Below, one piece after another: positions 46,476 through 51,870 of a stretch of 64,000 bases of DNA. This DNA is from Segetibacter sp. (lineage in GTDB: Bacteria > Bacteroidota > Bacteroidia > Chitinophagales > Chitinophagaceae), in the NCBI GenBank assembly GCA_028288485.1, contig JAQBNO010000142.1:1-64000 (forward strand), written 5' to 3'. Positions within the stretch are counted from its first letter, which is position 1; each line of letters opens with the position of its first letter. The notes beneath the pieces were generated by a model. It was not told where the DNA came from and did no database searches. It saw only the letters and a program-made list of their open reading frames with translations. The position numbers and the translations under genes were made by a program.

Positions 46476-46907
46476 CTATTGTTGCCGCTCAATTATTGCC
46501 AAAGTTGTAGTGTCTTTTGTTCCGTTGAAAAACCTCTCTAAGACTAACTGGAATACCGGATCGGCATTATGTACCGAAGCAAATAATGTCATAGATGATT
46601 TCAGCTTTACATCATCAGGGCTTCCAAATATCGTGTTCGCATTATTACTTTCAAGTTTAAGCAATTCATTACTAATCTCAATTAGCCTGCTACCTAATAC
46701 GGGGTGGCTCAAAAATTCTTCCGCTTCATTAATGTCTTTTATTGCATAAAACTTTGAAGTCTCACTAAAGCCTAAACCTAGAATTTGAGGAAAGATATAC
46801 CACATCCAATGGCTGCGTTTTCTGCCATTCTTAATTTCTGCTAAAGCAGCCGAGTAGTCTGCCTGCTGTGCGTCAAGAAATCTTCTTAGATTGTTTTCGT
46901 TGGTCAT
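46476..46907 (-). CDS. DUF1810 family protein (143 aa)
   Basis: Complete DUF1810 (calpastatin-like) domain: NLRRFLDAQQADYSAALAEI, GRKRSHWMWYIFPQI, SKFYAIKDINEAEEFLSHPV, IFGSPDDVKLKSSMTLFA and FNGTKDTTTLAII. I start at MTNENNLRRF, where the family begins; the frame is open for another 81 codons upstream through a GNAT domain without a stop. It may therefore be made as its own protein or as the tail of a fusion. The biochemical function is unknown. Confidence 0.82.
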   Translation of the reverse strand: MTNENNLRRFLDAQQADYSAALAEIKNGRKRSHWMWYIFPQILGLGFSETSKFYAIKDINEAEEFLSHPVLGSRLIEISNELLKLESNNANTIFGSPDDVKLKSSMTLFASVHNADPVFQLVLERFFNGTKDTTTLAIIERQQ

Positions 46908-47425
46908 TTCCTTTATGTTGGTGGATGTAATATTTAGAGTATAAAGCCAATATCGTTTCCCAAATCTATTGGGAATTTCTTTAAGAATTGTAAACCCGGG
47001 GCTTTCATAAATATGCCTCGCTGCATCCATGAGTTCTGACGTATGAAGTGCTATCGTTTTTTCATTCAAATCTTTCGCTTTTTCGAGGCACGTCTGAGTT
47101 AGTGTTTTTGCAATACCTTGACCCGTATAGCCTGGATGTACTCCAACCATTCTTATGTAACACCAATCCTCCTCGTGAATATCAGCCGGTTTCCACTTGG
47201 TATCAGGAAGGCCGTTCCGACAATAGTGGTATCATGCAGACAGACAAATGAGGCCGATTTTACAATCAGTTCTAAAAATGCTTCTTCGTCATTCAAAAAT
47301 CTATTTAAAGTTTCCCGATGTTCAGGACTTAGAATTGTTGAATATGGGCCATAAGCAAATACAAGAGAAGAACCGATTACAAAAACAGTATTTTGTACCA
47401 TCTTGTTCATTATTCCACCGATCAA
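46908..47425 (-). pseudogene. Frameshifted GNAT acetyltransferase, continuous with DUF1810
   Basis: The N-terminal part in one frame runs ILSPEHRETLNRFLNDEEAF to VGTAFLIPSGN, then goes out of frame after one lost base near 47195. In the next frame it continues PADIHEEDWCYIRMVGVHPG, YTGQGIAKTLTQTCLEKA (the acetyl-CoA-binding loop) and YESPGFTILKEIPNRFGKRY, and then reads straight into DUF1810. The GNAT is probably inactive unless the frameshift is an assembly error. Confidence 0.65.
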
Positions 47426-47904: not shown

Positions 47905-49779
47905 ATGGAAAAGTTTATTGTTTCGGCCCGTAAGTACCGGCCCCAGAATTTTAATACGGTTGTGGGGCAAAGTCATATTACCACTACCTTAAAAAATGCC
48001 ATCCGCAACCAGCAGTTGGCGCACGCCTTTTTATTTTGCGGTCCGCGTGGCGTGGGTAAAACTACCTGTGCCCGTATCCTGGCAAAAACAATTAACTGCG
48101 AAAATATTAGCACCGATGGCGAGGCTTGTAATACTTGCCATAGTTGTGTGTCGTTTAACGAAGGAACCTCACTTAATATTCACGAGCTTGATGCGGCCAG
48201 CAATAACTCGGTAGATGACATCCGGGCATTGGTTGACCAGGTACGTTTTGCGCCACAGGCAGGAAAATACAAAGTGTATATTGTGGATGAGGTACACATG
48301 CTTAGCGCAAGTGCCTTCAATGCATTTTTGAAAACACTGGAGGAACCTCCGTCGTACGCCATTTTTATATTGGCAACTACTGAAAAACATAAGATCATTC
48401 CGACCATCTTAAGCCGTTGCCAGATCTTCGATTTTAAGCGCATTACCAATAACGATACAGTTGATCATTTGCAGGAAATCGCCGGCAAAGAAGAAATTCG
48501 CGCCGAAAAAGCTGCGCTGCAGGTAATTGCACAAAAGAGTGAAGGTTGTATGCGCGACTCGCTGAGTATCCTTGATAAAATTGTAAGTTTTACCAACGGC
48601 GAGGTTACTTACCTGAACACCCTGGAGCACCTGAACATTCTTGACCATGATTATTATTTCCAGATGCTGGATGCACAGTTGAACCAGGATATGGCAGGTT
48701 CAATGTTGTTATATGACCAGATAAACCGTAAAGGTTTTGAAGGCGACCTTGTGCTGAACGGCTATGCCGAGTTTGTGCGTAATGTACTGGTTTGTCAAAA
48801 TCCCCGTGCCGCTTCTTTGCTCGATGTGGTGGAAGGGTTACAATCGAAGTATGTTGATGCGGCGAAAAGGGTAAGTCCTGCTTACCTGGTGAGTGCTTTA
48901 AATATTTTAAACGAAGCCGAGATCAACTACAAAATGGCCCGTAACAAAAGGCTGCATGTAGAAATGACGATGATCAAGCTTACTTTCCTACAGCAGGCGA
49001 TCGAATTGTCGTTCGATTCCCAATCCGCTACTCTTATAAAAAAAAAGCGGGTTAACGGACCGGTAGCTGTAAAGTTTGATCCCTTGCAATCACTCCAGAT
49101 CGCTTCTGCTGCTACGACCCTGCCGGGTCCAGGCGGAGGTAGCAAATTGTATATTCAAACTCAAACTCCCGCTGCAACCGCAGTTGCGCAACCAAAGCCG
49201 GTGGCTGAACAAAAGAAACAGTTAGCCGAAGTTGCCTATTTACAATCGCAGCAGGAAACGGTAGATACGTTAACTGAAGTTGCCGAAAAACCTATACCTC
49301 CCAAAGCTAAAATACCGGCAACAGGTAAAAAATCTTTGCTGGAAAGCCTGCGTGACCAACACATTACCAACAAGGTAAGCGTAAATAAAAAGGACGCGGT
49401 TCCGGTTACCGAAGAAAACTTACATGAACATTGGAACTGTTTTACGGACAAACTTAAACAGCAGTTTAAACATTCGGTAGTAACAGTCTTTAATATAGCC
49501 AGGCTGCAGGTAGTAAACGAGCAGCATTTTTCTGTAACAGTATCTACCAGTCTTGAGCAAAAGTTTATCGAACAGGAAAAGCTGTCCCTGCTGGAATATT
49601 TGAAAGACTGCTTCCAAAACCGTTATATAGGTTTTACGATACATATCGACGAGACGCCAAAAGAAATAGTAATTTCTGAAGTTACTTTGACTACAAGGGA
49701 GAAATACAACAAGATCATTGAGGAATACCCGATGGTAAAAGAGCTAAAAGATAGGTTGAAACTGGAGCTGGATTATTAG
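47905..49779 (+). CDS. dnaX: DNA polymerase III subunits gamma and tau (624 aa)
   Basis: Clamp-loader ATPase. Walker A is GPRGVGKTTCAR near residue 45, followed by a zinc module with three or four Cys (CENISTDGEACNTCHSC), Walker B VYIVDEVHML and the SRC motif LSRCQIFDF. The AAA+ and collar domains end near residue 375; the rest is a Pro/Gln-rich linker and a C-terminal tau-like domain. A run of nine A at 49038-49046 lies exactly at the end of the collar and a stop is seven bases beyond in the -1 frame, so a short gamma form of about 380 residues is possible (see findings). Confidence 0.95.
   Translation: MEKFIVSARKYRPQNFNTVVGQSHITTTLKNAIRNQQLAHAFLFCGPRGVGKTTCARILAKTINCENISTDGEACNTCHSCVSFNEGTSLNIHELDAASNNSVDDIRALVDQVRFAPQAGKYKVYIVDEVHMLSASAFNAFLKTLEEPPSYAIFILATTEKHKIIPTILSRCQIFDFKRITNNDTVDHLQEIAGKEEIRAEKAALQVIAQKSEGCMRDSLSILDKIVSFTNGEVTYLNTLEHLNILDHDYYFQMLDAQLNQDMAGSMLLYDQINRKGFEGDLVLNGYAEFVRNVLVCQNPRAASLLDVVEGLQSKYVDAAKRVSPAYLVSALNILNEAEINYKMARNKRLHVEMTMIKLTFLQQAIELSFDSQSATLIKKKRVNGPVAVKFDPLQSLQIASAATTLPGPGGGSKLYIQTQTPAATAVAQPKPVAEQKKQLAEVAYLQSQQETVDTLTEVAEKPIPPKAKIPATGKKSLLESLRDQHITNKVSVNKKDAVPVTEENLHEHWNCFTDKLKQQFKHSVVTVFNIARLQVVNEQHFSVTVSTSLEQKFIEQEKLSLLEYLKDCFQNRYIGFTIHIDETPKEIVISEVTLTTREKYNKIIEEYPMVKELKDRLKLELDY
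49038..49055 (+). promoter_or_regulatory. Candidate frameshift/slippage site in dnaX (A9 with -1 stop)
   Basis: Nine A residues read as ATA AAA AAA AAG in frame; shifting back one base gives AAA GCG GGT TAA, so termination follows within three codons. This is like the E. coli and Thermus dnaX gamma sites, but no strong downstream stem was found. Confidence 0.5.
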
Positions 49780-50106: not shown

Positions 50107-51870
50107 ATGGCGGAACCGATATTAATGCCCAGGTTGAGCGATACCATGACAGAAGGAGTGATAGCTGCATGGCATAAAAACGTAGGAGATACAGTGAAGA
50201 AAGGCGACTTACTTGCTGAGATCGAAACTGATAAAGCTACCATGGAACTTGAAAGTTACCAGGAAGGCGTATTGCTGCATCGCGGTGCTGCAGACGGGCA
50301 GAAGTTACAGGTAAACGACCTTTTGGCGATTATTGGTAAACAGGGTGAAGATGTAACCACTCTTGTTTCACAACATAGTGGTAATGGTGCGCCAGCCGCA
50401 GCTCCTGCTACTGAAGCTCAGCCGCAACCTGCACCAGCCCCGGCACCACAGGCACAAGCTGCACCTGCTCCCGAAGCGCCTGCTGCGCAACCACAAGCTC
50501 AGCCTTCTGCCGCACCATTAGATATATCTAAAATGGAGGAAGTGGTTTTAATGCCGCGCCTAAGCGATACCATGACGGAAGGTGTAATTGCTGCATGGCA
50601 GAAAAATGTAGGTGATGCAGTAAAAAAAGGCGAAGTGTTAGCTGAAATCGAAACTGATAAAGCTACCATGGACCTTGAAAGTTATAAAAACGGAACGTTA
50701 TTATACCAGGGTGCAAAACCGGGGGAAAAGATTGCGGTTAATGAACTGCTTTGCATAATAGGTGACCCCGGAATGAATATAGATGCGATTGTTGCCGCTT
50801 CAAAAGGTGGTGCAGTTGCTCAACCTGCTCCGGCAGAAGAAGCGCCTGCTGCTCAACCACAGGCTGCAGCCGCACAAGCATCGTCTGCACCTCAACCCGT
50901 AGCACAACCTGTTGTAAATGAAGGACGCATCATAGCTTCTCCGCTGGCTAAAAAGCTAGCAGAAGAAAAAGGCGTTGATTTACGTTATGTAAAAGGTTCC
51001 GGCGATAACGGTCGAATCGTTAAACAGGATGTAGATGGTTTTCAGCCGGCACAGCAACCAGCAGCTCAACAACAGCCGGCACAACAACCAGCTCAACAGC
51101 AACCTGCGGCTCAGCAGGAAGCACCTGAACCTGCACCTGCAAAAGCGGCAGAACAAAAACCTGCAGCTCAGCAAACTTCTATCGGACAGGTGAGCTTCGA
51201 GGAAGTTCCGGTTTCGCAAATGCGTAAAGTAATTGCTCGCCGTCTTGCTGAAAGTAAATACTCTGCTCCGCACTTCTATCTCACTATGAGCATAGATATG
51301 GATAATGCGGTGCAAACACGGGCAAAGCTGAACGAGATGTCTCCTGTGAAAATCAGTTTTAACGACCTGGTACTTAAAGCGGCGGCTGTTGCGTTAAAGC
51401 AGCATCCTAAAGTTAATAGTAGCTGGTTAGGCGATAAGATCCGCATCAACCATCATGTAAATATAGGTGTGGCAGTTGCGGTGGAAGAAGGGCTGCTTGT
51501 TCCGGTAGTTCGTTTTGCCGACGCAAAAGGGCTTAGCCAGATCTCTGCCGAAGTAAAACAATTTGCACAAAAAGCAAAAGATAAAAAGTTGCAACCCGCC
51601 GATTGGGAGGGAAGCACATTCACTATTAGTAATCTCGGCATGTTTGGTATAGATGAATTCACGGCGATCATCAATCCGCCCGATGCCTGTATTTTAGCTA
51701 TTGGTGGAATTTCACAGGTGCCCGTTGTTAAAAACGGCCAGGTAGTTCCTGGAAATGTTATGAAAGTAACACTCAGTTGCGATCATCGCGTTGTAGACGG
51801 CGCTACAGGCGCTGCATTCCTTCAAACCGTTAAGAGTTTGTTGGAAGAGCCTTTGAGAATGCTTGTATAA
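50107..51870 (+). CDS. pdhC: Pyruvate dehydrogenase E2, dihydrolipoamide acetyltransferase (587 aa)
   Basis: Core of the pyruvate dehydrogenase complex, moving acetyl groups to CoA. Two lipoyl domains (about 1-77 and 138-215) each carry the lipoylated Lys in EIETDKAT; they are joined by Ala/Pro/Gln-rich swinging linkers (for example APAPAPQAQAAPAPEAPAA). A peripheral-subunit-binding domain (about 280-315, ASPLAKKLAEEKGVDLRYV) and the catalytic domain (about 355-587) with LSCDHRVVDGATGA, the active-site His, follow. Duplicated lipoyl domains in E2 are usual in this phylum. E1 and E3 genes are not adjacent. A terminator follows. Confidence 0.94.
   Translation: MAEPILMPRLSDTMTEGVIAAWHKNVGDTVKKGDLLAEIETDKATMELESYQEGVLLHRGAADGQKLQVNDLLAIIGKQGEDVTTLVSQHSGNGAPAAAPATEAQPQPAPAPAPQAQAAPAPEAPAAQPQAQPSAAPLDISKMEEVVLMPRLSDTMTEGVIAAWQKNVGDAVKKGEVLAEIETDKATMDLESYKNGTLLYQGAKPGEKIAVNELLCIIGDPGMNIDAIVAASKGGAVAQPAPAEEAPAAQPQAAAAQASSAPQPVAQPVVNEGRIIASPLAKKLAEEKGVDLRYVKGSGDNGRIVKQDVDGFQPAQQPAAQQQPAQQPAQQQPAAQQEAPEPAPAKAAEQKPAAQQTSIGQVSFEEVPVSQMRKVIARRLAESKYSAPHFYLTMSIDMDNAVQTRAKLNEMSPVKISFNDLVLKAAAVALKQHPKVNSSWLGDKIRINHHVNIGVAVAVEEGLLVPVVRFADAKGLSQISAEVKQFAQKAKDKKLQPADWEGSTFTISNLGMFGIDEFTAIINPPDACILAIGGISQVPVVKNGQVVPGNVMKVTLSCDHRVVDGATGAAFLQTVKSLLEEPLRMLV

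Follow-up and report, generated by a model that had tools for sequence, protein, structure and literature searches.

A conserved A-run past the collar domain of dnaX in Segetibacter and other Bacteroidota: a probable site of programmed transcriptional slippage

Described dnaX slippage systems and the Segetibacter gene

The closest described system is the dnaX gene of Thermus thermophilus, in which transcriptional slippage occurs at a run of nine A residues (A9) (Larsen et al. 2000, as described in PMC1088944 and PMC5009743). A related set of genes was collected with GeneTack in 2013. According to the text of that survey (PMC3711429), it comprises 17 two-ORF dnaX genes from 12 genera, including Chlorobium and Chloroherpeton, mostly with ten A's and all with a -1 shift, and 0 of the 17 were annotated in RefSeq; the authors suggested transcriptional realignment and took mixed shift direction as a sign of this process. 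The third system is E. coli dnaX (gamma: 431 aa), which carries an A_AAA_AAG heptamer with six A's (A6), followed by a nearby -1 stop and a stem-loop.

We analyzed a 64,000-nucleotide stretch of Segetibacter sp. (hereafter, the window; positions 1 to 64,000 of contig JAQBNO010000142.1, assembly GCA_028288485.1) that includes the clamp-loader tau/gamma gene, dnaX (Table 1). Its product aligns with E. coli tau (E 1.4e-70), and its Pfam content is that of clamp-loader subunits (AAA+ ATPase, lid, and domain III). An earlier note on this DNA, made from the letters alone, had pointed to nine A residues at 49038–49046 as a candidate slippage site. The run was confirmed at this position, with codon 378 (ATA, 49036–49038) of a 624-codon ORF at its start, as was the claim that the gene has no further long A-run (all others in window dnaX are six A or fewer). 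Read in the -1 frame from 49038, the sequence is AAA AAA AAA GCG GGT TAA, in agreement with the K-K-K-A-G-stop of the note; this reading ends at 49055, and the tail of the product is I-K-K-K-A-G. The size of the short product needed a minor correction, from about 382 residues and about 42 kDa to a computed 383 aa and 42.9 kDa for a message with ten A's, and the predicted product of an eight-A message is 386 aa. Because stops are near in both other frames, either shift would give nearly the same short protein.

The A9 begins 14 codons beyond residue 364, where Pfam ends domain III, and 19 residues beyond the point at which the alignment to E. coli domain III stops (query 359 = E. coli 356). The note had placed the site at the same position in the protein as in E. 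coli; this holds only roughly, as the E. coli site lies about 50 residues deeper in the linker.

Table 1 Features of the dnaX gene in the window
Feature	Position	Strand	Product or remark	Pfam
dnaX, clamp-loader tau/gamma gene	47905..49779	+	624 codons in frame; tau, 70.2 kDa	PF13177, PF22608, PF12169
AAA+ ATPase part, residues 22–180	47968..48444	+		PF13177
Domain III (collar), residues 245–364	48637..48996	+		PF12169
Candidate slippery A9 run	49038..49046	+	with the next G, 0-frame heptamer A_AAA_AAG at 49041–49047	
Tau-specific linker and C-terminal tail	49048..49776	+	missing from the predicted short form; C-terminal part conserved	
-1 frame stop TAA	49053..49055	+	383-aa short form predicted after a -1 ribosomal shift or from a message with one extra A	
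+1 frame stop TAG	49064..49066	+	386-aa short form predicted from a message lacking one A, 387-aa form from one with two extra A	

Downstream of dnaX, an ORF at 50107–51870 (+) encodes a dihydrolipoamide acyltransferase (E2) with two lipoyl, E3-binding, and catalytic domains. On the other side, a single ORF at 46476–47150 (-) has a GNAT-type acetyltransferase end (PF00583, residues 2–53) leading into a DUF1810 domain, and a separate 90-aa ORF lacking a Pfam hit lies just upstream of it (47153–47425, -); the region 46476–47425 (-) is perhaps a broken or fused GNAT gene.

The window dnaX shares with the Thermus gene, as described, a sense-strand run of about nine or more A's, tau in frame, early stops in the two alternative frames (here TAA at 49053 and TAG at 49064), and a short gamma-like product, which is predicted in our case. 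Thermus belongs to a different phylum and its slippage was measured, whereas slippage in the window gene, whose run lies at codon 378 of 624 just past domain III, is predicted. Relative to the GeneTack genes, as that survey describes them, the arrangement in the window is reversed, with tau in frame and an ORF that reads through to 624 aa. With E. coli dnaX, it shares the heptamer in the 0 frame, a nearby -1 stop, and two products alike in kind (the short form again being predicted), but the two genes differ in run length (A6 versus A9 in the window and A9–A11 in relatives), in the position of the site, and in the stem-loop, which is found only in E. coli.

Based on these comparisons and those given below, we consider it probable (about three chances in four) that the A9 serves programmed transcriptional slippage (realignment) as in Thermus dnaX. 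In this model, RNA polymerase would add or drop A's at the run, giving a mixed mRNA pool in which messages with 9 or 9+3n A's would encode tau, and those in the other two frames would reach an early stop and encode a gamma-like subunit of 383–387 residues (AAA+ domains and collar, without the tail). In E. coli, the tau tail binds the helicase and the polymerase.

Conservation of the run and of the stops beyond it

According to the earlier note, an A-run interrupted by synonymous changes in close relatives would refute slippage. In the genus (10 genomes including that of the window; dnaX readable in nine), no such interruption was found, and 9/9 readable species keep both A9 and the -1 stop. 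Codons 378–381 read [AG]TA AAA AAA AAG in all nine, followed by [CA]GG and an invariant GTT. The -1 stop (TAA, TAG, or TGA) is built from Asn, Ser, or Asp codons (AAY, AGY, GAT) after the GTT, and the Gly, Pro, and Val codons past the stop site vary while the run is unbroken.

Beyond the genus, the run is mostly kept, with rare exceptions. Among 39 near-relative genomes (including the window's own), a strong dnaX match was present in 36 and absent in three that are 71–75% complete. Each of the first 30 loci has A9–A11 no more than 31 codons from where the domain III alignment ends, as well as a -1 stop within six codons, and five of the six further loci also have A9–A11 (the sixth is truncated), giving 35/35 readable loci. 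Of the 28 nearest loci among those from genome contigs (L185–L212, 68–83% identity), 27 carry A9–A11; the exception within the family is L205, a Chitinophagaceae metagenome assembly in which the site reads AAG AAA AAA. A second exception, L322, belongs to the same order as the window and has A7 only. The dnaX sequence of another family member, L018, is identical to that of Terrimonas ferruginea (Chitinophagaceae), which puts the family of the window at Chitinophagaceae. These sequence comparisons support slippage at the window A9 and the predicted gamma-like short form. The genome contains 244 A9 positions in 6.38 Mb (overlapping positions counted on both strands), about one per 52 kb per strand, and the chance of A9 somewhere in the 1.9-kb dnaX is about 4% (much lower at this exact spot); a chance origin of the run is excluded because it is conserved in relatives.

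The phylum sample was assembled from the first 30 near-relative loci, to which were added all 117 matches of a class search (119 genomes), the six loci left from the near-relative search, 80 loci from genome contigs, and 59 loci hand-picked among the matches listed by a phylum search (196/198 genomes matched). The hand-picked loci comprise 48 from other classes (one to a few per family) and 11 from the class or order of the window, and four families (f84, f94, f100, f103) are absent from the sample. Truncated rows (L048, L123, L148, L150, L255) and duplicates (L189, identical to L018; L254, identical to L075) were removed before counting, leaving 282 dnaX genes (234 of the class Bacteroidia and 48 of other classes). 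In each gene, the longest A-run was taken from a zone of -6 to +50 codons around the end of domain III.

A run of A9–A11 is the longest in this zone in 231/282 genes (Bacteroidia: 207/234; other classes: 24/48), although these counts are non-independent because the sampled genes are related. The run is A9 in 65 genes, A10 in 155, and A11 in 11, whereas A8 is the longest run in none of the 282 genes and the remaining 51 have A7 or less. Control zones of equal length inside domains I–III contained one A9 in 1,112 zones (223 genes at that stage). The run begins in all three codon phases (phase 0: 44; phase 1: 104; phase 2: 80; n = 228), implying that the nucleotide run is conserved rather than one peptide or one heptamer frame. 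Thus, a slippage-prone length is held whatever the codon phase, a criterion that we added to those of the Thermus type. On a gene tree (FastTree), run presence changed at least 27 times (shuffled mean 47.3), run phase at least 39 times, and run length at least 48 times, counts that are inflated by tree error.

The other-frame stops were compared to an expectation obtained by synonymous resampling of the downstream codons with each gene's own usage. Of the 186 tau-in-frame genes, 175 have a -1 stop no more than three codons past the run (94.4 expected, sd 5.4), and 153 have a +1 stop no more than six codons past it (90.8 expected, sd 5.6). Both stops (-1 within six and +1 within ten codons) are present in 170/186 genes, compared to 59.2 (sd 5.5) expected. 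In an earlier subset of 161 in-frame genes, 94% had a -1 stop within three codons, versus 24% at random tau-tail sites.

The 51 run-less genes include half of the sampled other-class genes. A common substitute for the run (A8, T8, G7, C7, or longer) was sought along their tails and none was seen; the tails contain A8 in L070, L073, L243, and L276, five G or C runs, and 15 in-frame A_AAA_AAR heptamers. Individual genes differ in what they carry instead. A10 lies 97 codons past domain III in L076 and A9 lies 110 codons past it in L231, as if the site had moved. Instead of an A-run, L258 (uncultured Bacteroides sp.) has a G7, placed ten codons past domain III and one codon ahead of a -1 stop; this may be a slippery site of another kind. 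In L147, from a 0.5-Mb genome, dnaX ends three codons past the aligned core; neither run nor tau tail was found in it, and this dnaX is apparently gamma only.

Relatives with the short form in frame

An inverted arrangement was found in 42 of the 231 run-bearing genes, among them those of Fluviicola chungangensis (L261) and Jiulongibacter sediminis (L262). In these genes a stop closes the templated frame right behind the run, so that the short form is the default. (Three further genes, L051, L212, and L220, have the run but their ends lie off the stretch; they are counted in the 231 and are outside the 186 and the 42.) Like the GeneTack genes as described, the inverted relatives have a poly-A junction with gamma in frame and tau reached by a shift.

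The counterpart of the C-terminal region of window tau sits in another frame in these relatives, namely the -1 frame in 39 genes and the +1 frame in three. Using a profile of the tau C-terminal region built from in-frame genes, the tail was located in 41/42 (38 at -1; three at +1: L082, L096, L203), and in all 41 no stop interrupts the alternative frame between a point inside the run and the tail. In the 42nd gene, L279, the tail was found in the -1 frame via the tail sequence of its sister (79% identity, E 1e-103). The two frames overlap by a median of 28 nt (range 13–232; 90 nt or less in 35/41), and this short overlap places the shift at or very near the run in most inverted genes. Since the tau tail can be reached only by a shift, slippage must operate in the inverted relatives if tau is made in them.

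The arrangement flips at least 26 times on the gene tree, compared to a mean of 38.9 and a minimum of 33 in 200 shuffled sets. Even close pairs can differ in arrangement (L279/L280 and L077/L241), and all four of these genes have A10 in the context GAA AAA AAA AAG. An inverted state is common to related species in three cases (L117 and L119; L141 and L142; L143–L145). The three +1 genes carry A10 (L082) or A11 (L096, L203), and an assembly error of one A would make each an ordinary in-frame gene; mixed shift direction is therefore weak evidence in our sample. When an inverted genome is annotated by simple ORF calling, the short protein alone is obtained, with the tail as a separate ORF.

Polymerase or ribosome, and what the site may mean

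The main alternative, which we regard as unlikely, is that the ribosome makes a programmed -1 shift at A_AAA_AAG, like that in E. coli dnaX, and so yields the same kind of short form. The E. coli heptamer is present in the same frame in the window with a -1 stop two codons on, so a ribosome could slip there and contribute to the short form. Moreover, -1 stops are nearer than +1 stops, and a -1 shift is needed in 39/42 inverted genes. The window genome adds a further E. coli-like condition that counts against the polymerase, because the only tRNA-Lys among 35 tRNA hits has a UUU anticodon, although this list looks incomplete and tRNA-Lys content does not decide between polymerase and ribosome. 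However, the heptamer needs just 6–7 A's, yet the observed floor is nine and A8 is never the longest run in the zone.

Stimulatory elements of the E. coli type were also sought. No stem-loop was detected in nucleotides 4–36 after the window run (z = 0.23, MFE -4.8), whereas the E. coli control gave z = -2.56 (MFE -19.1), and the whole set showed no excess (mean z -0.08 in 228 genes versus -0.09 at control sites). This 33-nt fold window was picked because it recovered E. coli (other short windows gave E. coli z-scores of -1.20, -2.33, and -2.10), and a first 60-nt window was uninformative, with a z-score of only 0.06 for the same control. A Shine–Dalgarno-like element about 10 nt upstream scored 0 in the window; this is a weak test because E. 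coli itself scores only 4. By the same weak score, matches of at least 5 nt occur in 9/228 genes versus 6/228 controls, and those of at least 4 nt in 54 versus 37 of 228.

A second alternative, which we consider very improbable, is that the Lys-Lys-Lys stretch is simply part of a basic linker, encoded with AAA-biased codons, and that cells make no short form. KKK is indeed common at the site and AAA is favoured, so that synonymous resampling alone gives A9 or longer in 68.5 of the 186 tau-in-frame genes, compared to all 186 observed (these genes were pre-selected for the run). Nevertheless, the phase and the encoded residues vary while the run is kept, for which reason the basic-patch explanation was rejected; in addition, the other-frame stops are far nearer than expected, and the inverted genes need a shift to reach the tau tail. 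It is scarcely credible that the frame differences are DNA indels, with the run acting as a phase-variable repeat or arising as an artefact of assembly: homopolymers are indel-prone, draft or metagenome assemblies are the source of some inverted genes, and a one-base error would bring the three +1 genes into frame, but dnaX is essential, run length is confined to 9–11 in the sample, related species have a common inverted state, the alternative frames are arranged about the run with a short overlap, and the window A9 matches that of eight other species of the genus.

Transcriptional slippage at the A9 accordingly remains our preferred reading of the window. Three sequence features point to the polymerase: a floor of nine A's, the use of any codon phase, and a missing E. 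coli-type stem-loop. We infer the slipping agent (polymerase rather than ribosome), the tau:gamma ratio, and the stability and use of the short form. Extended to the phylum, it is rather likely that polymerase slippage in dnaX is old and spread across Bacteroidota in the broad sense, with the run and its stops under selection and the in-frame product nearly free to flip.

Slippage in dnaX and the two-ORF form were already known, and what appears to be new is the spread of the run and the repeated flips of the in-frame product. No paper in the open-licence literature was found to describe a dnaX run conserved across Bacteroidota or a default product that flips repeatedly, although species of this phylum may be named in the supplement of PMC3711429.

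A review (PMC5009743) recounts a considerable controversy over the role of gamma beside tau in E. coli before that role was settled. That most sampled members of the phylum keep the run, and that the default product has flipped repeatedly, speaks for the importance of both forms. The flipping dnaX genes provide many natural replicates for testing the roles of the two forms. If our reading is correct, dnaX of Bacteroidota would in effect be read as a pool of frames, not as one frame.
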